Origin: Fluviicola sp.
GTDB lineage: Bacteria; Bacteroidota; Bacteroidia; Flavobacteriales_D; Crocinitomicaceae
Direction of reading: 5' to 3'
Assembly: GCF_039596395.1 (NCBI RefSeq)
Contig: NZ_JBCNJT010000004.1
Span: 186,001-250,000, forward strand
Length of the DNA: 64,000 bases
Shown piece by piece: positions 1,035-10,612 of the stretch (within the stretch, counting starts at the first letter, position 1; every line of letters begins with the position of its first letter). A program made the translations under genes and the position numbers. The notes under the pieces are model-generated. The model made no database searches. It was not told the DNA's origin and worked only from the letters and a program-made list of their open reading frames with translations.

Positions 1035-1066
1035 TTTGGTAGAACGAAATAGATTTCTTATCTTTG
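1035..1066 (+). promoter_or_regulatory. Bacteroidota-type promoter for the 1138-2759 pair
   Basis: TTTG at 1035-1038 is followed after 20 bases by TATCTTTG at 1059-1066, a full match to the -33 TTG / -7 TAnnTTTG promoter of the phylum. It leaves a leader of about 65 nt before the GTG at 1138. The rest of the 846-1137 gap is AT-rich and shows only the palindrome at 874. Confidence 0.65.
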
Positions 1067-1137: not shown

Positions 1138-2196
1138 GTGAAACGAATTATTATCCTTTCCGTTGGTACGGCAACCCCTAAAGTTATCAAAGCTATTTCA
1201 GAAGCTTTTGAAATTAACCAGGAGTTATTATTTAAAATTCTTTACAATGCGCCTGCTATCTTTTTAGACCATGCAGATGAAGCGCTGGCAGAAAAGGCAT
1301 TCACCATTTTAACAGAACTCGGGCTGGAAGTTCTGATCCAAAATGCAGATGAACAAGCACCTATGCCCACAGAATCCCTTGATATCGCCGTCCATATCAA
1401 TGATCCGGTGAAATTAAGCACCGTCAACAAACAGCTGGCTGAATTTCTGGGCTGTACTGAAAGTGAATCTCTGCAACTCTTGCTCAGCGACCCCTCGGTG
1501 GTCTTAGGCGGAGTATCTATGGCCACAGCAGAGAGCTTGCAAAAACGAATAGATGCCGAAGTAATTGCAAGTAACCCCAAAATGGATTTGTACACCATTG
1601 AATTCACTGCAGCATCAGAAAATGACCGACTGAAGTTGATTAACCTCATCAAAAACCAGGAAATCACTATTCCTGAAGGAGAAACAAGATGGGTTCGCAA
1701 CCTAACCTACGAACAAATGAACCAGTTTCTCACGCGTTATCGCTCGCAACACGAGGTTAAGATCTACAACCAGAGTTATTCCAGGTTCCGTATTCTACTG
1801 GATAACTTTGACCTGTCGGATACTTCCCAAACCGATTTTCTCGTAAACGAGATCGGGATGCCACGGGAAATACTCGCAGAAATCCACGCCAATCTTCCGG
1901 TTTTACTGGATGAATCAATCAACTATGGCACACTTCAGGAAAACTTACTCTTGTACAAACAAGCCGGTTTAACCTGTTCCGAACAACGGATTCCATTCGG
2001 AAGGTATGTCATTTCGGTCAGTAACATTACCGATTCCGGGAAAGCAAGGGAAATCCTGAGCAAATATTACAAAGATGTCAATTTAGACACACTCACAGAT
2101 GTCTGGAAAGCCCCTCTGCCTCTTGGCGGTACATTGAGCCGATTGCTTGAAAAACAGTTGGAATACATTGGATGTGAAATTGAATACGAATACTAA
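1138..2196 (+). CDS. Protein of tandem ribosomal L7/L12 C-terminal-like repeats
   Basis: I do not recognise this 352-residue protein as a named family. It starts with GTG and has no signal peptide or membrane segment. Residues 8-62 (TPKVIKAISEAFEIN, then ILYNAPAIF, then ALAEKAFTILTELGLEVLI) follow the layout of the ribosomal protein L7/L12 C-terminal domain: strand, helix ending in x-NAP, helix, 'LxxxGLxVxI' strand. Weaker copies appear at about 78-135 (VNKQLAEFLG, LLLSDPSVV), 232-285 (FLVNEIGMPREILAEIHANLPVLL, LYKQAGLTC) and 291-352 (ILSKYYKDVN, VWKAPLPL, LEYIGCEIEYEY). It shares a promoter with the next gene, five bases downstream. Binding of a partner through these folds is inference; no catalytic residues were seen. 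Confidence 0.75.
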   Translation: MKRIIILSVGTATPKVIKAISEAFEINQELLFKILYNAPAIFLDHADEALAEKAFTILTELGLEVLIQNADEQAPMPTESLDIAVHINDPVKLSTVNKQLAEFLGCTESESLQLLLSDPSVVLGGVSMATAESLQKRIDAEVIASNPKMDLYTIEFTAASENDRLKLINLIKNQEITIPEGETRWVRNLTYEQMNQFLTRYRSQHEVKIYNQSYSRFRILLDNFDLSDTSQTDFLVNEIGMPREILAEIHANLPVLLDESINYGTLQENLLLYKQAGLTCSEQRIPFGRYVISVSNITDSGKAREILSKYYKDVNLDTLTDVWKAPLPLGGTLSRLLEKQLEYIGCEIEYEY

Positions 2197-2201
2197 CCAC
2201 T

Positions 2202-2759
2202 ATGAACGAAAACAACCCTAACCTCCATCTCCAAATCGCTGAAAACGGAAAAGTCCTCGCTTTAAAAGGAGATCACAAAGAAGCATTGCGCCACTACAAA
2301 GAGGCCATGCGGATGTGCCAGTCAGTCGAGAATTCCGAGTTTTTCCTGCAGCATTACAGTTTGTGTGCCATGGAATCACTGGAATTGATGGAGGCACACG
2401 AAGAAATCATCACTTTTTGCGAGAAAAGCATTGATTTCCTGACACCCAAAAAGGCCGAACGTACAGACGATTGGTTCAGGAAATACCTCGCATCGCTCTG
2501 GGAACGGAAAGGCATCCAGAGCATCTACCTGGATGAAAAAGCAGAAGCGATCGAAGCTTTGGAAGAAGCTCTGAAAGAAGCAAAGGAATTTACCATGCCT
2601 TTGGCTAAAGAGTTACTGAACTGGCTTCGCAGAGGGTACGCAATCACTCCGCAAAAAGTGCGTGATCTTCAAAAAAGACATCACTACTTTACAGTTCGTA
2701 AAGAGAATGTCAACGAAAAAATAGCAGTTCAACTGCCGGAAATGATCAATCCGTTCTAA
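2202..2759 (+). CDS. TPR-like helical protein of unknown function
   Basis: This 185-residue soluble protein lies five bases after the L7/L12-like repeat gene and is almost certainly in its operon. It is nearly all helical. Residues 10-40 (NGKVLALKGDHKEALRHYKEAMRMC) match a tetratricopeptide repeat, with the G-x-x-x-x-A-x-x-x-Y-x-x-A spacing, and 95-130 (LASLWERKGIQSIYLDEKAEAIEALEEALKEA) is a second one. The basic stretch LRRGYAITPQKVRDLQKRHH (about 144-163) may be a contact surface. No signal peptide or membrane segment is present. A protein-protein interaction role follows from the TPR fold. A link to the unusual cluster starting 155 bp downstream is possible only by position. Confidence 0.75.
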   Translation: MNENNPNLHLQIAENGKVLALKGDHKEALRHYKEAMRMCQSVENSEFFLQHYSLCAMESLELMEAHEEIITFCEKSIDFLTPKKAERTDDWFRKYLASLWERKGIQSIYLDEKAEAIEALEEALKEAKEFTMPLAKELLNWLRRGYAITPQKVRDLQKRHHYFTVRKENVNEKIAVQLPEMINPF

Positions 2760-2769
2760 ACCCGTTTTA

Positions 2770-2890
2770 TACGAAATACAGGCAGCCTTATTTGTGCGCA
2801 CAAATAACTGTCCGCCTGAAACCCATCATTTAAAATGACCCGGGCACACCGGTTACGCCCTCATTTTTCGGACGCAGCCTGTATTTCGTA
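2770..2890. promoter_or_regulatory. Structured leader: 14-bp inverted repeat enclosing a 20-bp palindrome
   Basis: TACGAAATACAGGC at 2770-2783 is repeated as its exact reverse complement at 2877-2890. Inside, 2788-2807 is a perfect 20-bp palindrome with half-site TTATTTGTGC. The region precedes the first gene of the 2915-10612 cluster by 24 bp. It has no T-run, so it is not a simple terminator; an operator or folded 5' leader is more likely. No -33/-7 promoter was found in the 155-bp gap. Confidence 0.6.
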
Positions 2891-2914
2891 CAAAACATTA
2901 AAAACAATTAATTT

Positions 2915-4768
2915 ATGAGTGATTTAACCAAATTCAGTGAAGGAGCTTCCATTCTTCAGCAGGTTGATGTCAGTGACATCTTTACAAACCTCGCCATGGG
3001 AATTGCGGAAGCTCAACAGAAACTAGATGACAATTCGATAGCACAGGCTATTAAATTGGCAGAAACCAACATCGACGGTGAATCTTTGTTGTCTTTAGGC
3101 TTCGCTCCGGTTTTCTATGCATTCCAATATGCAGACATCAGTGCCAGTATTAACTTGCAAATGGGACTAAAAGAAGCATTGGAATTCGGATTCGGGATCG
3201 ATGTGCAATTGTCCAACCTAAAAGGATACTCTGCTTTTAACCGTACTTTCTTAAGTTCAAACAGTTATTCGGAAACTTCAGAAGAATACAAATCTGTTCG
3301 ACAATTGAACTTCCGTGCAAAAGAGAAAAAGGCGATTAAGATCAACAACAAATTCATCAGCCAAAGTGAATACCTTGATGCAAAAACCCGCTTGGAGGAT
3401 TTCAAACACAAAATCCAGTCAGAAACGACTGTAGACCAGGTTTATGAAGAAATAGAATCCAGATCTCTCACTGAAAACAACAGCCGAGGAGTGGACGTCT
3501 TTATGGATGGAGGATTCATTCGAATTGAACCGAGTTTACATTTCGCAATTACCGGAGGAGTTGGACTCTTAAGAGTTGCTGATTTTAACGCACCATCAAC
3601 CACTATTGATCTTGATGGGCCGACATCCACTACATCCACTACATTTAGTTTGACGAATGCCGGATTTAACAATGCATTTTTAGACAGTGCAGTTACCGGA
3701 GCCGGATCAGGAGCTACCGTATATGCTCTTACAAAAGAAGGTAACTTGTTTGTAAAATCAGGTGGAAGCTGGGTAGAGGTATCAAGCAAAATTTACTTCG
3801 GGTATAACAGTGATGAGATTACCTATGGTAAAAATTTGAAGGATGGACCTAATGATTCTGCCAATCTGGAATATCCTTACGTGAGTCCGATTGTTGCTGA
3901 TGATAATGAAAACCACGATCAACATCCGTTAATCCACAAGGTGCTTCGTTTTATCCAAAGTCATGATTCGGATGCGTCCATTACCATTACGGGAATGACG
4001 GATCCAAAGGGCGGAGATAATCCGAAAAACAAAAGTTTGGCAAAAAGACGTGCAGAAAAACTGCGTGATCATATTTTCGGATCTTCAGCACCAATCAATG
4101 TTGAAATTGGTGCTGTAACAAACACTAATGGACCCAGTAATTTGATTGATCGCCATGCTACTATCGAGTTGAACTCTAACTACGTAATCATTATCGGAGC
4201 TAACGTTAAAAAAGTAGCTACAACTACTCCAGTCGGACCAAACAAGTTTGTTTACCTGGATGAATCAACAGCGACAGAAGGTCCTTTCAACAAATTGAAC
4301 GTTCAATATGGTTCAATTAGTCTTGCAATTTCAGATAACAGCTTTACCAATATCTGGAATACTGCCAAAACCAAATTGACTAACCACAGACACGAAGCAA
4401 CTTCTGACCAACTTCATTATTCTTTGGACAACGAAGCAATTGTAAAATTGCATTTGCTTTCGAACGACGCAGAAGAGATTTCTATCGAAGAAAATTCAGA
4501 AAGTAGCAGCAACGGAAGCGAGAACCAAAGTTCTTATTTGTGGGCTAAAACTAAAAATGAAAGCAATTCAGAAAGTGAAAGCTCAAGTAACAATAATCAG
4601 AGCTCATCATTTGCTTTCAGCGCAAGTGTAGATTTCAGAATGTCCCGTCAGTTTGAAATGTCGATGGAAGGAAATTCTTCCATGTCAGCAAGATTGGTTT
4701 CTCTTCCTGCACCAGATGCTTTCCGTGCTTTCCTGGACAGAAAATATGGAAGCTCTACGGAAGGATAA
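2915..4768 (+). CDS. Cluster paralog 1: GIAEAQ/LLSLGF protein with inserted OmpA-like domain
   Basis: I do not recognise this family. The 617-residue protein opens the cluster and has no signal peptide. Block A (residues 20-45, GIAEAQQKLDDNSI at 29-42) and block B (LLSLGFAPVFYAF at 58-70, then ISASINL) match paralogs at 4794, 5286, 6240 and 9476. Block C closes it (FRMSRQFEMSMEGNSSMSAR, LVSLPAP near 595-600). Between B and C sits an insert. Residues about 290-418 resemble an OmpA-like domain: KIYFGYNSDEI, then ITITGMTDPKGGDNP, SLAKRRAEKLRDHI and DRHATIEL. A Ser/Asn/Glu-rich stretch at about 525-575 follows. OmpA-like domains usually bind peptidoglycan outside the cytoplasm, which is odd for a leaderless protein. 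The OmpA match is moderate and the function unknown. Confidence 0.8.
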   Translation: MSDLTKFSEGASILQQVDVSDIFTNLAMGIAEAQQKLDDNSIAQAIKLAETNIDGESLLSLGFAPVFYAFQYADISASINLQMGLKEALEFGFGIDVQLSNLKGYSAFNRTFLSSNSYSETSEEYKSVRQLNFRAKEKKAIKINNKFISQSEYLDAKTRLEDFKHKIQSETTVDQVYEEIESRSLTENNSRGVDVFMDGGFIRIEPSLHFAITGGVGLLRVADFNAPSTTIDLDGPTSTTSTTFSLTNAGFNNAFLDSAVTGAGSGATVYALTKEGNLFVKSGGSWVEVSSKIYFGYNSDEITYGKNLKDGPNDSANLEYPYVSPIVADDNENHDQHPLIHKVLRFIQSHDSDASITITGMTDPKGGDNPKNKSLAKRRAEKLRDHIFGSSAPINVEIGAVTNTNGPSNLIDRHATIELNSNYVIIIGANVKKVATTTPVGPNKFVYLDESTATEGPFNKLNVQYGSISLAISDNSFTNIWNTAKTKLTNHRHEATSDQLHYSLDNEAIVKLHLLSNDAEEISIEENSESSSNGSENQSSYLWAKTKNESNSESESSSNNNQSSSFAFSASVDFRMSRQFEMSMEGNSSMSARLVSLPAPDAFRAFLDRKYGSSTEG

Positions 4769-4793
4769 TATTCACTATTAAACTTCCGGAAAA

Positions 4794-5258
4794 ATGGCAG
4801 CAATTGAAACAATTACAAACACGCTTACGAATTCCCCGCTTTCATCTATGATTGAAAACATGGGAATTTCAGTAGCAAAAGCGCAGGCAGCCCTGGACAG
4901 TAATTCCATCGAAATGCTCAAAAGCCTCGCTTCCAGCACCGTAGAAATAGGAGGACAAAAAATCAGCTTATTAAATTTAGGCTTTGTTCCCAGCTTCTAT
5001 GCCTTTACGGAAGCAACTTTCGATGCAAAAATGGACTTTTCACTGGCCGAATCGACTTCCTTTAACGCAGACGCGGTGGTTTCAGTGCAAACACAAGTAG
5101 TTTCGGCTACTGTTAGTGCAGGTTTTGCACGCAAATTCGATCAATCGGCTTCGGCTTCTTCGAGTATTGCAGCCCGCATGGTTTCACTACCGCCACCCGA
5201 AAACTTAGTGACCCTTCTGAAAAATTTAAATCCGGTAGGACTCACAACAACAACGTAA
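4794..5258 (+). CDS. Cluster paralog 2: minimal form of the family
   Basis: This 154-residue protein appears to be the shortest, insert-free member and so defines the core. Block A is PLSSMIENMGISVAKAQAAL from residue 15. Block B is LLNLGFVPSFYAFTEATF (about 61-78), followed by KMDFSLAES. Block C runs from VSAGFARKFDQSASASSSIA through ARMVSLPPPENL at about 130-141. There is no signal peptide, no membrane segment and no known catalytic motif. It lies 25 bp after paralog 1 and 27 bp before paralog 3, in one transcription unit. Predicted secondary structure by eye is a helix, two beta hairpins and a C-terminal extended strand. This fits a small subunit that assembles with its paralogs, which is inference. 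Confidence 0.8.
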   Translation: MAAIETITNTLTNSPLSSMIENMGISVAKAQAALDSNSIEMLKSLASSTVEIGGQKISLLNLGFVPSFYAFTEATFDAKMDFSLAESTSFNADAVVSVQTQVVSATVSAGFARKFDQSASASSSIAARMVSLPPPENLVTLLKNLNPVGLTTTT

Positions 5259-5285
5259 TCTTTTAATCAACAAAAACAACAAAGT

Positions 5286-6173
5286 ATGTTTGAAAACACC
5301 AAACCACGCATTGGTCAGGAACTTCTTGACGTGCCTATGGGCGACATGATTCGCCAAATGGCTTTTGCAATCGCAGAAGCACAGATCGTTTTAGATCAAA
5401 ACTCCATTGACGTAGCCGAAATGATGGGCGGTTTAACAACCGTTACGGATGAAGAAGGAAATGTCACTTTCGAAGACAGCCGAGTTTATTTCGGAAGAGA
5501 AAAATTGACAAAGGCTCAAGCTATTGCCCGCCACAACTCTACAACCAATGTTCAGGAAAAAGCTGAAATTCGTTCCTTACTTGGTTCAGGAGCTTACAAA
5601 CCGACATTATTAGCGACCCCTAGTGGTTTTACCGCTGGCGCAGCAATTGGAACGGCAGATAAATATGTGGATTTTCAGGGATCATTTTATTTAAGTACTG
5701 GTACAGGGGGTACTGGACCCTCTGTTGCAAAGACTCATGGAGATTTAATGATTGAATCTACCACTACTTCTACAGATGGTTCCGTTATCATCGAACTTCC
5801 AAGAAGAATTTCCATGTTGGAATGTGGTTTTACACCGACATTCTACCAATTCGTGGATACGATCATTGAAGTAAAGATTTCCATCAAGTACACACAGGAA
5901 GGTACTGCTGAAAGCAGTGGTTCTGTAACTGTTCAATCTCCGGTAAAACGCATTGGAAAAGGCTTGAAAAAACTCAAAAACGGAAAAACGGTGCAGATTG
6001 CGCAGGTGAATGCTGCTTACTCACAGAAGTACAGCTATTCTGCTGAAGGATCAAGTTTGCTTCGCACCAAGTTGGTTCCGCTTCCACCACCATCAATTTT
6101 GGAGGAGCGTATCCAGCGAATGATCAATGAAGAGTACAACAACGTTACTCCGGCAGCGATTCCGGCACCTTAA
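5286..6173 (+). CDS. Cluster paralog 3: family member with insert between blocks A and B
   Basis: This 295-residue member has block A as DVPMGDMIRQMAFAIAEAQ (residues 15-33) followed by IVLDQNSIDVAEMM. Block B is MLECGFTPTFYQFVDTIIEV (about 178-197), then KISIKYT. Block C is VNAAYSQKYSYSAEGSSLLR (about 243-262), then TKLVPLPPPSILEERI. The insert is between A and B here (about 50-170), not between B and C as in paralog 1. It is Gly/Thr/Ser-rich with no known domain recognised. A basic loop (KRIGKGLKKLKNGK, about 220-233) precedes block C. Blocks B and C are closest to paralog 4, which suggests a recent duplication. No signal peptide was seen. Confidence 0.8.
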   Translation: MFENTKPRIGQELLDVPMGDMIRQMAFAIAEAQIVLDQNSIDVAEMMGGLTTVTDEEGNVTFEDSRVYFGREKLTKAQAIARHNSTTNVQEKAEIRSLLGSGAYKPTLLATPSGFTAGAAIGTADKYVDFQGSFYLSTGTGGTGPSVAKTHGDLMIESTTTSTDGSVIIELPRRISMLECGFTPTFYQFVDTIIEVKISIKYTQEGTAESSGSVTVQSPVKRIGKGLKKLKNGKTVQIAQVNAAYSQKYSYSAEGSSLLRTKLVPLPPPSILEERIQRMINEEYNNVTPAAIPAP

Positions 6174-6187
6174 GCCAAATTAATCCC

Positions 6188-6219
6188 GGGCAGCTGTCAA
6201 AGCGGCAGCTGCTCTTTTT
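6188..6219 (+). terminator. Terminator-like hairpin inside the paralog cluster
   Basis: GGGCAGCTG at 6188-6196 pairs with CAGCTGCTC at 6206-6214 (nine pairs, one G-U), followed by TTTTT. It lies between paralogs 3 and 4, with 20 bases left before the next ATG. It may partially end transcription and set subunit ratios, or separate two transcripts. Confidence 0.6.
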
Positions 6220-6239
6220 AACCCTTAATCTATAAGCAT

Positions 6240-6776
6240 ATGGCAAATGTTGGAAAAGAGTTATTGAATGCTCCGTTTCCCGAATTAGTTCGAACGCTTG
6301 GTGTAGGGATTGCTGAGGCTCAATATGCACTCGATCGTGTTTCCATCAAAATCGCGCAATTAATGGCGGGATTCAAGGTGAATGACGATGGAGAAGTGGA
6401 ACGCGACGAAACAGCATTGATCGTTCTGAGAGAAGGAGACGAAGGAGTCAGTTTATTGTCTCTGGGCTTCACCCCTACATTCTATCAGTTTGTAGAAACT
6501 TATATCGAACTCAAGTTGGCTATTGCAATGAAAACAGAGACAGAAGCTACTGTAGGCAGTAATGTTGCAGGAGTTGCCTGGACACCATTTGGGGTAGTTG
6601 CAGCATCTGTAAATGCCAGTTATTCTCAGAAATACCAATACGAAGCAAACGGAAGTTCCGAAATGCGTACCAAACTCGTAACGGTTCCTGCTCCTGCAAT
6701 GTTCGAAAGTCGTTTGAAAGAACTGATGAACGAATCACAAATAGCTAAAGTTCAGGAAACTCTCGAAGAAGAATAG
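6240..6776 (+). CDS. Cluster paralog 4: near-minimal family member
   Basis: This 178-residue protein has block A as APFPELVRTLGVGIAEAQ (residues 11-28) plus YALDRVSIKIAQLM. Block B is LLSLGFTPTFYQFVETYIEL (about 74-93), then KLAIAM. Block C is VNASYSQKYQYEANGSSEMR (about 125-144), then TKLVTVPAPAMFESRLKELM. A short acidic insert (VNDDGEVERDETALIVL) lies between A and B. Blocks B and C nearly match those of paralog 3 (GFTPTFYQF, YSQKY, GSS, RTKLV). It is leaderless and has no transmembrane segment. The C-terminal helix after the PxP block is present in most members and may be a contact surface. Function is unknown. Confidence 0.8.
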   Translation: MANVGKELLNAPFPELVRTLGVGIAEAQYALDRVSIKIAQLMAGFKVNDDGEVERDETALIVLREGDEGVSLLSLGFTPTFYQFVETYIELKLAIAMKTETEATVGSNVAGVAWTPFGVVAASVNASYSQKYQYEANGSSEMRTKLVTVPAPAMFESRLKELMNESQIAKVQETLEEE

Positions 6777-6817
6777 AACAATCGGAAATTAAACACTAAC
6801 CATTCTAAAACAAGATT

Positions 6818-7906
6818 ATGACAAAAAGCTGGAAAAAACTCGTCAAAACCACAGATTTCGATTCAAACAATACAAGCGAAAACTCTTTTAGTAATATCCA
6901 ATTAACGCTGAATGAAATTGCAGCGCAAAATGAGGAATTGAATGATTTGTTGAAGGAACGGCAGTCTTTGGAAAAGGAGATGGGCAATTTACTTCAATCG
7001 AATAATCCTGTAACAGAAGATCCAAGGTTCTCCGGTACTATCGAATCGTTAAGCACCAAACGAGAGAAAGAAAAAAAAAGAGCCGTTCAGAAGAGAAAAT
7101 TGGAAGAACGGCTCTTACAAAAGAACAAAGAATTGGAAAAGTGGGAACAGAACCTGAAACGTCTGAAAAAAAAACTCGCTCTCCAAAAAAAAACCGCTCA
7201 GGCGGAAAAAAAAGAAACTCAGCAAGATTCTTCAACCAGCCTGAAAGCACTCAAATCAACACAAAAAAGTTCCGAGAAAAGGCGATTTGATGCCGATACT
7301 ATCCGGAAAAAGAAAGATGAAATAGGAAAAAAGAAGAAAGTGCTTACCGAAAAGGTCAAAAAGTTGGAAAAGGTTCCCGAAAAAATCAGGAAAGTAAAAC
7401 CAACTCTCGATTCATTCGGACAGAAGGATCTTGCGAAGTTTCAACAAAAACTGGATCCCGAGAAAAAGATTGCAGAGATTCCAACGCGAATTCGCAGGAT
7501 TAAAGATAACTGGGAAGAAAAACGTGAAACACAGAAAGAAAAGCTGCGGGAAAAAGTAGGTCTCAAAAAGCTGGAAGAGAAACTGGAAGAAGTAAAACGC
7601 TTTGGCAATGCTGTAAATTCAGCCAAATCACAAGCCAAAGACTCGTTGAAATCCCTGGAAGAAAAAGTTCCTGAAATGAAAGGATTTTCCGATCAGTTGG
7701 ACAAAGAACTTCCTTTGGATGATCGCCAAACAAACCTTTCCGAAAATGCTTCATCCAAAAAATCAGAAGAAAAAGAAGCTGAGCAAAAGGACACAAACCG
7801 CAGAGAAAAACTGAAAGAGCAATTTCTATCCAGAAAAAAGGCCGAACGAAAAGAAGAAGAACGGTCAAGTAGAAAAAAAGAACGCAAAAACGAAAAATAC
7901 ATTTAA
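6818..7906 (+). CDS. Highly charged coiled-coil protein of the paralog cluster
   Basis: This 362-residue protein is dominated by Lys and Glu and predicted to be mostly coiled coil. A first coil spans about 30-65 (LTLNEIAAQNEELNDLLKER) and a longer one about 82-190. A third Lys/Glu-rich part runs to the C-terminus (EAEQKDTNRREKLKEQF, then RKKAERKEEER). There is no signal peptide, membrane segment or enzyme motif. It sits 41 bp after paralog 4 and three bases before the Ig-bearing protein, inside the cluster and on the same strand. A scaffold or tether for the paralogs is a reasonable inference. The composition alone would also fit a nucleic-acid- or ribosome-associated protein. The A-rich codons follow from Lys/Glu content and are not clear evidence of transfer. 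Confidence 0.75.
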   Translation: MTKSWKKLVKTTDFDSNNTSENSFSNIQLTLNEIAAQNEELNDLLKERQSLEKEMGNLLQSNNPVTEDPRFSGTIESLSTKREKEKKRAVQKRKLEERLLQKNKELEKWEQNLKRLKKKLALQKKTAQAEKKETQQDSSTSLKALKSTQKSSEKRRFDADTIRKKKDEIGKKKKVLTEKVKKLEKVPEKIRKVKPTLDSFGQKDLAKFQQKLDPEKKIAEIPTRIRRIKDNWEEKRETQKEKLREKVGLKKLEEKLEEVKRFGNAVNSAKSQAKDSLKSLEEKVPEMKGFSDQLDKELPLDDRQTNLSENASSKKSEEKEAEQKDTNRREKLKEQFLSRKKAERKEEERSSRKKERKNEKYI

Positions 7907-7909
7907 AAA

Positions 7910-8593
7910 ATGAGTTCAACATCAACCACCAATTCACTGGCCCTGCATGAAATTATTCTCAGCATTGCGGACAGTTTGAATGAAGCGCAGGAAACACTGC
8001 GCAGCATGCCGCCGTATGACGAATACGGAAGACCAAACACCTTATATCAACTTCCTTACCTGGATTTTAACCTGGAAGTGATTTCACAGTTTGAAAGTAC
8101 TGAAACAAGCGGAGGAGGCGGAGCTTTGCCTGCAAGGTCCATTCGTTTTCTTCCCTTTAGAAGTACGGAAACAACGACTACCAATCAAAACATCGTTACT
8201 AGTACCATTTCAGGTCGATTTGTAGCTGTTATGCCAAATGAAGGATTACCTCAAGTTTTTTTGGAATGTTCTGCAGAACCAGACCCGATTACTTCAGGGG
8301 ACGGATTCACTGGTTACAGGATAACAATCAGAGCAGTGAATGCAGCCAATGAAGCTGTAATCGGTCAGCGAATCGAAGTAAATTTCAATACTTTCTCCTC
8401 CCGTGGTTTTAATTCCGGAGAAGATGTCAACACCCCCATTTTTACGGGTGCAAAGGACGGATATACCGACGAAAACGGAAGGTTCGAAGTTTCTGTGAAA
8501 TTAGATAACGTAGATTATGACTTCGGGAAAACCTTCATTTTCGCAGCCAATAGTGGCACACAATTTTCATCAATCGCAATTAGTAAGCCATGA
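7910..8593 (+). CDS. Cluster protein with block-A-like helix and Ig-like (Big_1-like) domain
   Basis: This 227-residue protein is a distant relative of the paralogs. Residues 9-29 (LALHEIILSIADSLNEAQET) match the block A pattern and LPYLDFNLEVISQ (about 45-57) takes the place of block B. ISGRFVAVMPNEGLPQVFLE (about 102-121) is in the place of the final strand. Residues about 125-227 look like a bacterial Ig-like domain of the Big_1/invasin kind: YRITIRAVNAANEAVIGQRI, then DGYTDENGRFEVSVKLDN. Such domains are usually on the cell surface, yet no signal peptide is visible. The stop overlaps the next ATG by four bases (ATGA), so the two are translationally coupled. From memory the helix-strand-strand layout recalls DUF2589; this was not tested. 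Confidence 0.75.
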   Translation: MSSTSTTNSLALHEIILSIADSLNEAQETLRSMPPYDEYGRPNTLYQLPYLDFNLEVISQFESTETSGGGGALPARSIRFLPFRSTETTTTNQNIVTSTISGRFVAVMPNEGLPQVFLECSAEPDPITSGDGFTGYRITIRAVNAANEAVIGQRIEVNFNTFSSRGFNSGEDVNTPIFTGAKDGYTDENGRFEVSVKLDNVDYDFGKTFIFAANSGTQFSSIAISKP

Positions 8594-9483
8594 TAATCAA
8601 TAAATTACAAATGGGAATTCTGCTATCCCATCCTGATAGAGCACCAATTCCTCCCACAACAGTAGTTTTTCAATACTATGATTTTGAAACGGAAAGCTGG
8701 GTACACCTGTACGAGCAAGTACTCAACTCAAAAGGAGCTGCCAACGTTTCAGCAGTCAGAAGAACCGGAATGCCTCCGGAAGAAGTCGCCTTCTTTGACC
8801 TGGTAAGTGATAAACAAATTCCTCCACTTCGTGTAATTCCGACAGAATTTGAGGGAGACATCTCTAAACAACCGGTATTTGCAAACGGTTTTGATTTTGA
8901 TATAGCGAGCTCCGGTACCTTGACAATTGATTTTGGCGGATTGTATTTAGTTCCGGAAGCTCTAATTACTGACCTCAGTACCCGGATTGAAAATTATGTA
9001 ATGATTACAAGTTCATATCCTGTCCCGGTTCCTACCGATAATACACCGCTTCCAATCAATGAATTGTATACGAATCTCGTTTCGGAAATTGCCACTGCAA
9101 GTGACTCTGGCTCTCCATTCAAACTTTCCAATGTTTCACTAAAATTGAAAGCATTGATTGAAAGAGATGGAGAAACCGTAAATGCTTCCTTGCTGGACCT
9201 TACCAATTCAAAAGATGTAAATGGAAATGCAATCAGTGAAATTGTTTTTGATATTACACCGGTTCAACAAACGGACGATGTTTCCAAACAGATCCCTGAT
9301 TTGACTGGATTTACAGAATCTGCTGTTCGAAAAATTCTACAGGCGTTTGGTTTAAAACTGAACCCCGTTTATCAGAAAAACCTGAATGTCGTGAATGGTG
9401 ATTCTTTCAGACAATCACCCGAAGCAGGAGAAATCATCGAATCAAACAAAATAGTAACCGTAATTTTTAGTAAACATGAGTGA
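8590..9483 (+). CDS. Cluster protein with C-terminal PASTA domain
   Basis: This is a 297-residue leaderless protein. Residues 1-230 are beta-rich and not recognised (VVFQYYDFETESWVHLYEQ, then GFDFDIASSGTLTIDFGGLYLVP, which may correspond to a family strand). Residues about 232-297 form a PASTA-type repeat: IPDLTGFTESAVRKILQAFG, then FRQSPEAGEIIESNKIVTVI. PASTA domains in other proteins bind peptidoglycan or partners outside the cytoplasm. It overlaps the Ig protein by four bases and the next paralog by eight, so three proteins are made in coupled fashion. PASTA also occurs three times in the next gene, which suggests the two act together. The N-terminal function is unknown. Confidence 0.75.
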   Translation: MIINKLQMGILLSHPDRAPIPPTTVVFQYYDFETESWVHLYEQVLNSKGAANVSAVRRTGMPPEEVAFFDLVSDKQIPPLRVIPTEFEGDISKQPVFANGFDFDIASSGTLTIDFGGLYLVPEALITDLSTRIENYVMITSSYPVPVPTDNTPLPINELYTNLVSEIATASDSGSPFKLSNVSLKLKALIERDGETVNASLLDLTNSKDVNGNAISEIVFDITPVQQTDDVSKQIPDLTGFTESAVRKILQAFGLKLNPVYQKNLNVVNGDSFRQSPEAGEIIESNKIVTVIFSKHE

Positions 9484-10612
9484 ACCAACTAACCCCGTTC
9501 AATTATTCAGCGAAATGCTTGGCAGTCCGCTGGGTGAATTAATCAGTTCTGTCGGCCAGGGAGTCGGAGATGCACAAGCAGCCCTGGACCAGGGAGCGCT
9601 GGAGCAAACTTTGGAAATTTATGATCTGAGCAAAGATGATGAAAAAACAGATGCTGAGTTAAAACTGCTGAAACTGATCCGTGAAATCGGTTATCAGCCT
9701 ACTTTTTACACCATTCCGGAAACAGAAGTAGAAGCACAAATTTCATTGTCGCTTGATTTGAAATCCGAACAAGCGAGTCCTATCGGAGGAACACCGCTTT
9801 CCAAATTCAAAGTTAACGCAACTCCGTTAAATGCCGGAAATATGAATCGTTTTGGTTTGCAGGCAAATGCAATGGCTAAATTGAAATTCAAAATCGTTCC
9901 TGTTCCACCTCCGCAAAACATCGTAGATATCCGATACGTACCGGATTTAGTTGGTCCAATTAGCCCTACTGATCCAAGTCCGAAAACATGGAACGAAACC
10001 ACAAAAGAACTCCTTGATAATCTTGGATTTACTGTTCTTTTCAAAACACAAGAAGGTGACTTAATCACAGATGAAACACTGGTAGAAGGTTTGGCAATTT
10101 TTAGTCAAACTCCTGACGCAGGAACCATTGCCAACACAGCAAATGTTCCTCTTGAGTTGACTTTCCAAGACCTTCATAAAGTTCCCGATTTAAGTACCCT
10201 GAACTGGAATTCAGAAACAGAAGAGATCATTGAGGATCTTGGATTTACGTATGCTTTCAAAACTCCGGAAGGCGACGCAATCATAGATGAAACATTGGTA
10301 GAAGGATTATTGATCGGAAGCCAATCTCCTTTAGCGGGATCTATAGCTAATGCTTCAAACACGCCTATTGAAATTGTTTTTGAAGATCTTCATAAGGTTC
10401 CAACTTTAATTGGTACATACTGGAGTTCAGAAGAAGAAGAAATCATTGAAAATCTAGGGTTTACTTATCAATTATTTGATGCAGACTCTTTAGAGACTAT
10501 CACTTTTGAAGAAGCAAACGGATATCTTGTTCAAGATCAATCCCTTGCATCCGGAACCTTCGCTTATACAGGTGATACAATTAATGTCTTTGTAAATACA
10601 AACGACATGTAA
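9476..10612 (+). CDS. Cluster paralog 5: family core followed by three PASTA-like repeats
   Basis: In this 378-residue protein the core occupies about 1-150. Block A is GSPLGELISSVGQGVGDAQ (16-34) plus AALDQGALEQ. Block B is LIREIGYQPTFYTIPETEVE (about 63-82), then AQISLSL. Block C ends in LKFKIVPVPPPQNI. Three PASTA-like repeats of about 75 residues follow, each with VPDL or VPTL, a TxE-helix, LGFTxxF/Y, and a QxPxAGxxA-type turn. The first two are very similar to each other (DETLVEGL, LHKVP). It differs from the other paralogs by carrying its extra domain at the C-terminus. It is the last gene of the co-directional set and is followed by a 13-bp hairpin. No signal peptide was found. Confidence 0.8.
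   Translation: MSEPTNPVQLFSEMLGSPLGELISSVGQGVGDAQAALDQGALEQTLEIYDLSKDDEKTDAELKLLKLIREIGYQPTFYTIPETEVEAQISLSLDLKSEQASPIGGTPLSKFKVNATPLNAGNMNRFGLQANAMAKLKFKIVPVPPPQNIVDIRYVPDLVGPISPTDPSPKTWNETTKELLDNLGFTVLFKTQEGDLITDETLVEGLAIFSQTPDAGTIANTANVPLELTFQDLHKVPDLSTLNWNSETEEIIEDLGFTYAFKTPEGDAIIDETLVEGLLIGSQSPLAGSIANASNTPIEIVFEDLHKVPTLIGTYWSSEEEEIIENLGFTYQLFDADSLETITFEEANGYLVQDQSLASGTFAYTGDTINVFVNTNDM

Follow-up and report, generated by a model that had tools for sequence, protein, structure and literature searches.

We analyzed a 64,000-nucleotide stretch of a Fluviicola sp. genome (contig NZ_JBCNJT010000004.1, positions 186,001 to 250,000; hereafter the window), in which ten tightly packed genes, designated A to J, constitute one operon on the forward strand at 1138–10,612 (Table 1). 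An earlier note on this DNA had singled out six open reading frames between 2915 and 10,612 as an undescribed cluster of leaderless paralogs. All six lie where it placed them, and the cluster is real, but the unit starts at 1138, since genes A and B accompany the rest. Below we describe the core shared by these proteins, the conservation of the operon, and the assembly that it may encode.

Table 1. Genes and non-coding features of the A–J locus (window coordinates)
Feature	Position	Strand	Description
Promoter	1035–1066	+	TTTG-N20-TATCTTTG, exact match upstream of gene A; presumably of Bacteroidota type
Gene A	1138–2196	+	Tandem ribosomal L7/L12-C-terminal-like domains
Gene B	2202–2759	+	TPR protein; TPR_2 above cut-off
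B–C leader	2760–2914	+	Structured leader; conserved long-range stem of about 19 pairs
Gene C	2915–4768	+	Core halves at both ends, split by an insert of about 450 residues with an OmpA-like domain
Gene D	4794–5258	+	Minimal hairpin core
Gene E	5286–6173	+	Hairpin core; insert between helix and first strand
E–F stem-loop	6188–6214	+	Conserved; terminator-like in the window
Gene F	6240–6776	+	Hairpin core
Gene G	6818–7906	+	Fast-evolving, highly charged coiled-coil protein
Gene H	7910–8593	+	Diverged core; C-terminal immunoglobulin (Ig)-like domain (invasin or macroglobulin type)
Gene I	8590–9483	+	N-terminal Ig/transthyretin-like domain; C-terminal PASTA
Gene J	9476–10,612	+	Hairpin core followed by PASTA repeats

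A shared hairpin core in a conserved operon

Five of the ten proteins (C, D, E, F and J) share a core of approximately 150 residues, a helix followed by two strands in constant order. The core opens with an N-terminal helix (GIAEAQ..LD..SI), continues with a first strand (LLSLGFxPTFYxF.E..IE.K) and closes with a block S....KLVxxPxP leading into a short helix, and these three blocks are collinear in all five translations. Eleven positions are invariant across the five cores (A27, Q28, L31, D32, G76, P79, F81, Y82, V147, P150 and P152 in the numbering of F). Searches of the whole genome with core profiles matched these genes only, and profile comparison of C, D, E and F with J gave P-values of 1e-16 to 1e-26; the likeness is therefore not due to chance. 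Gene H, which the earlier note had called a degenerate sixth member, is a genuine diverged core, matching the family of C with P 1.8e-6 and the families of D and F together with P 1e-4. What is added to the core differs in kind and placement, as had also been noted: the insert lies between the strands in C and between helix and first strand in E, and in J the PASTA part follows the core. Scans of all ten genes with Pfam, NCBIfam, PHROGs and PADLOC left the core unnamed.

We then asked how widely this arrangement occurs. The ten genes were first seen outside the source genome in two Bacteroidota genomes of another family, with A to J (1138 to 9476 in the window) in the same order. A scan of 84,980 species genomes, using E and F orthologs as queries, confirmed 142 relatives, of which the best 80 loci were retained; as the scan worked by seed patterns and kept the top 80, the resulting distribution is a lower bound biased to close relatives. 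Of 81 distinct loci, 61 carried all ten genes on one strand in identical order (63 of 83 rows, as a pair of loci was present twice). Ten of the incomplete loci were correctly ordered pieces on partial loci, and the remainder differed slightly, for example by an additional F-like copy or an over-long open reading frame. Median intergenic gaps within the loci ranged from −1 to 33 bases. The gene family models were built on the same loci, which partly predetermines family membership but does not affect gene order. No neighboring gene recurred around the operon across loci, except those common to close relatives.

Fixed slots and spread across phyla

We built a tree from 95 cores belonging to 19 loci and covering slots C, D, E, F and J. 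The five slots need four label changes on this tree, the minimum possible, compared with 58 in shuffles. Slots C, E and J are clades, each with 100% support in the Shimodaira–Hasegawa-like approximate likelihood ratio test; F is paraphyletic to E, and D does not fall on one side of a single branch. The grouping of slots apart in the tree indicates that the paralogs split earlier than the spread of the operon, with no replacement of one by another afterward. Such lasting separation would be expected of a mixed assembly whose positions are distinct.

The carriers belong to Pseudomonadota (44), Bacteroidota (28) and Myxococcota (3), with one each in Gemmatimonadota, Latescibacterota, Acidobacteriota, Verrucomicrobiota and Chloroflexota. 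Recurrence in other Bacteroidota, which the earlier note had proposed to survey, thus extends to seven further phyla, and a module kept intact and ordered over eight phyla implies strong selection on it as one unit. At the same time the module is rare and patchy, being found in 3 of 295 genomes of the class and 11 of 150 of the family, in 9 of 195 genomes of the phylum of the Corallococcus locus, and in 1 of 251 of that of the Chloroflexota locus. In the genomes searched, core matches form a single locus with either all paralogs or none, apart from draft assemblies in which the locus is split between contigs. The distance from a LytTR regulator gene to a flippase-like gene is 12.8 kb here and 0.6, 1.3 and 1.5 kb (5.5 kb in a fourth) in congeners lacking the module, near-empty sites as expected for an island gained or lost. 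In a tree of seven concatenated families, alpha- and gamma-proteobacteria are mixed, and the Gemmatimonadota and Latescibacterota loci stand beside Halomonas. This intermixing suggests that the module has spread horizontally, bearing in mind that metagenome bins are among the records and that FastTree tends to group long branches. A record titled Glaciecola amylolytica (CP034120.1, locus L062) carries the A–J operon with Fluviicola-type flanking genes and is probably mislabeled.

Domains, composition and relatives of the A–J proteins

Two different peptidoglycan-binding folds occur in three of the genes. An OmpA-like domain (PF00691) was found in 25 of 26 gene C orthologs, the window copy falling below the cut-off (E 5e-4), and its placement between both core strands puts it at the tip of the hairpin. 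With this domain match goes a conserved Asp/Arg pair: D363 is kept in 68 of 73 orthologs and R379 in 72 of 73 (window numbering). The corresponding pair of Acinetobacter baumannii OmpA binds diaminopimelate (PMC6572160). PASTA (PF03793) forms the C-terminal part of I (26 of 26 orthologs) and of J (20 of 26), and both window copies exceed the cut-off of 23.2 bits (31.8 bits in I, 35.6 bits in J). We infer from these domains that C, I and J bind peptidoglycan. Their setting is unusual in that the OmpA-like domain of C lies within a leaderless hairpin protein rather than behind a signal peptide or an outer-membrane barrel, and the PASTA parts of I and J are likewise leaderless, with neither a kinase nor a transmembrane anchor.

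Cysteine content separates C–J from A and B. It is 0.00–0.16% in C–J (0.00% over 75 orthologs of D, 0.01–0.16% in the other members) versus 1.03% in 524 genes that flank these loci, and normal in A (1.09%) and B (1.48%). From this near-exclusion of cysteine we read C–J as probably working outside the reducing cytoplasm, with A and B remaining inside. Leaderlessness, which the earlier note had remarked on, extends to the orthologs examined: neither a signal peptide nor a lipobox pattern is a shared trait of any A–J family, and transmembrane-like stretches are absent or rare.

Profiles of gene A matched bL12 structures at residues 5–73 (E 1.6e-5) and 224–288 (E 0.003), Pfam L12 was found in 9 of 22 orthologs, and the protein is probably a cytoplasmic assembly or adaptor factor; gene B is probably cytoplasmic as well. 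F and H flank the G family in nearly every complete locus. The Ig-like end of H gave weak matches to Big_1 and MG4. Orthologs of gene I gain a coiled coil of variable length, which apparently accounts for their wide length range. The Chloroflexota copy (positions 2807–7447 of locus L114) has 1546 residues, compared with 297 in the window.

Several non-coding features are conserved among Fluviicola-type loci. The promoter 5′ of gene A is preserved among them, and the 5′ leader before gene A (1035–1137, including the promoter) is strongly conserved. In the leader between B and C, an alignment of six such loci showed changes on both sides in 8 of 32 predicted pairs; the leader had no Rfam match, and its stem could possibly control the C–J part of the operon. 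The stem-loop between E and F (GCAGCTG...CAGCTGC) is kept in six Fluviicola-type loci, with a T-run in the window copy only, and may set subunit ratios.

We modeled D with AlphaFold2 from 109 aligned D and F sequences, with rows unmodified. The model consists of a long helix (15–47), two strands (68–85 and 116–132) and C-terminal helices, and is confident in the long helix, the hairpin bases and the C-terminal helix. The first strand is amphipathic, its polar and apolar faces alternating both in D (p 0.0008) and in F (p 0.02). A Foldseek search of the Protein Data Bank with the D model returned nothing under E 0.7. In the viral library BFVD one unnamed protein, the predicted structure A0A516MP19, aligned to the D model with E 3e-5, a TM-score of 0.56 and 21% identity. 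An aerolysin-like pore, prompted by the Ser/Thr-rich hairpin, was backed by no search.

The family nearest to the core is DUF2589, which the earlier note had suggested from the helix-strand-strand layout. Its own model (PF11655) matched no core gene in a Pfam scan to E 1, nor anything in the whole genome. By profile comparison, however, C and D were collinear with DUF2589 over 145–158 columns that begin at the N-terminal helix and run through to the closing P-x-x-L helix (P 1.4e-4 for C, 4e-5 for D; hhalign probability 52–69%), with P 0.4 and 0.15 for their reversed controls and 0.15–0.7 over their reversed and unrelated controls together. F aligned by its helix only (P 2.8e-4), H weakly, and E and J gave weaker, partial alignments near their reversed controls. 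These comparisons make DUF2589 probably a distant relative of the cores, by kinship rather than membership; the lead was probably right as to kinship, although it names a relative and not a role. Neither DUF2589 nor the core has a solved structure. DUF2589 has no described function; among 5.39 million open papers we found a lone mention, as short lactate-induced genes in Archaeoglobus. Its proteins are also cysteine-poor (0.27%) and its genes also occur in small paralog groups of two or three, but the DUF2589 loci seen lack OmpA, PASTA, L12-like and Ig parts as well as the ten-gene order. At loci L033, L036, L038, L041, L045 and L055, DUF2589 genes adjoin a similarly laid-out protein (a helix, a PVPR...-type strand and a near-terminal E-x-G-x-x-W or similar) and a helical protein, an undescribed recurring trio.

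Another relative lies on a Sphaerotilus sulfidivorans plasmid (NZ_CP035710.1, locus L141, 7424–9854), where two core genes, which match family F with E 1e-39 and 2e-24, adjoin a helix/strand protein and a coiled-coil protein. This locus has four genes only, with no OmpA or PASTA part, and is perhaps a minimal form of the system.

We also compared the operon with known systems. The cores had no PHROG and did not appear in 50,697 phage records or when 2.9 million viral contigs were scanned; DUF2589 itself matched one viral contig. In view of this absence from viruses and the lack of virion genes, we dropped the idea of a phage remnant. Matches in PADLOC were limited to gene I, through cross-matching of its PASTA part, and gene A, weakly and of ThsB-like type; they do not amount to any known anti-phage defense system, and the idea of a gas vesicle was dropped as well. 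Tailocins and extracellular contractile injection systems are, like A–J, leaderless and patchy and may carry peptidoglycan-binding modules, but A–J has no sheath, tube, baseplate, spike or ATPase homolog. The earlier note had recognized no phage tail, injection, gas-vesicle or secretion component, and this stands after library, structure and viral searches; a strong match to a characterized system was looked for and did not turn up. Searches of the open literature (subscription papers being outside our scope) gave no description of this domain combination. No known system explains A–J.

A possible peptidoglycan-docking assembly

Taken together, these features point, at somewhat short of an even chance, to A–J encoding one hetero-oligomeric assembly that grips peptidoglycan, with C–J extracytoplasmic despite having no Sec signals. 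Its hairpin subunits would number six (C, D, E, F and J together with the diverged H), each confined to a position that no other can fill, and would pack through their N- and C-terminal helices and long beta-hairpins. G and I would serve as coiled-coil or Ig linkers, and A and B would stay cytoplasmic, acting in assembly or targeting. Once assembled, the C–J particle would come to lie beyond the reducing cytoplasm and grip peptidoglycan through the OmpA-like domain at the tip of the C hairpin and the PASTA parts of I and J. A mixed assembly of co-expressed variants had been suggested in the earlier note. It is favored indirectly by a gene order that hardly varies across eight phyla, by the presence of a single gene in each slot and by the old, separate groups that the slots form, and co-assembly and hairpin packing are what we would predict from these sequence patterns.

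Several observations weigh against such an assembly. The operon has no linked exporter, lysis gene or signal sequence, which leaves the route of a leaderless particle to peptidoglycan unexplained. Some cytoplasmic assemblies, such as gas-vesicle proteins, are also cysteine-poor. The AlphaFold2 models are of low confidence (mean pLDDT, the predicted local distance difference test, 61–68, with 68 for D and values below 50 at D residues 90–113), although a middle that is unordered in the isolated model would be expected if the hairpin orders on assembly. Regular alternation in the second strand was not significant.

Within the peptidoglycan-gripping reading, the particle could be released or retained. 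If C–J assemble in the cytoplasm and lysis frees them, as with tailocins, they would bind the peptidoglycan of the producer or its neighbors. The leaderless, cysteine-poor proteins, their predicted peptidoglycan binding and a distribution as patchy and intermixed over phyla as that of weapons agree with release; with no lysis genes, no sheath, tube or baseplate homolog and no recurrent cargo gene, we consider it unlikely as a specific scenario. The particle could instead be a ring, a channel or a surface organelle that the producer anchors in the peptidoglycan of its own envelope. In favor of anchoring, the usual target of OmpA and PASTA domains is the cell's own wall, and the weak fold matches were to MS-ring collars and beta-barrel pores. 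All of these matches had E > 0.7 and are not evidence alone; the pore stems appeared at E 2.4 or worse, with the model hairpin itself of low confidence. Lacking signal peptides and almost lacking transmembrane helices, the proteins have no obvious entry to the periplasm, and we would not expect this sub-case either, at a similarly low probability.

Less likely is a cytoplasmic compartment, filament or scaffold in which the OmpA and PASTA folds have been turned to contacts between proteins. The missing leaders, the cytoplasmic character of A and B and the cysteine poverty of some cytoplasmic assemblies would all fit it, but the diaminopimelate-binding Asp/Arg pair would be kept there without a role, and two different peptidoglycan-binding folds would have gathered in three genes for another purpose. 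Finally, the locus might be no single system but a DUF2589-like gene that simply multiplied locally, with accessory domains that are unrelated; DUF2589 genes too occur in groups of two or three. Ten genes whose order and slots are constant over eight phyla, with slots older than the spread, bring this explanation close to refutation.

If A–J does encode a peptidoglycan-docking assembly made without signal sequences, it would be an envelope machine or a released particle of a new type. More specifically, and with slightly less confidence than in the docking assembly itself, we propose that it represents a new class of leaderless nanomachine: a six-hairpin, fixed-order hetero-oligomer related to DUF2589, which would leave the cytoplasm by an unrecognized route, dock on peptidoglycan, and have spread horizontally over at least eight phyla. 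It would then also provide a first handle on DUF2589.

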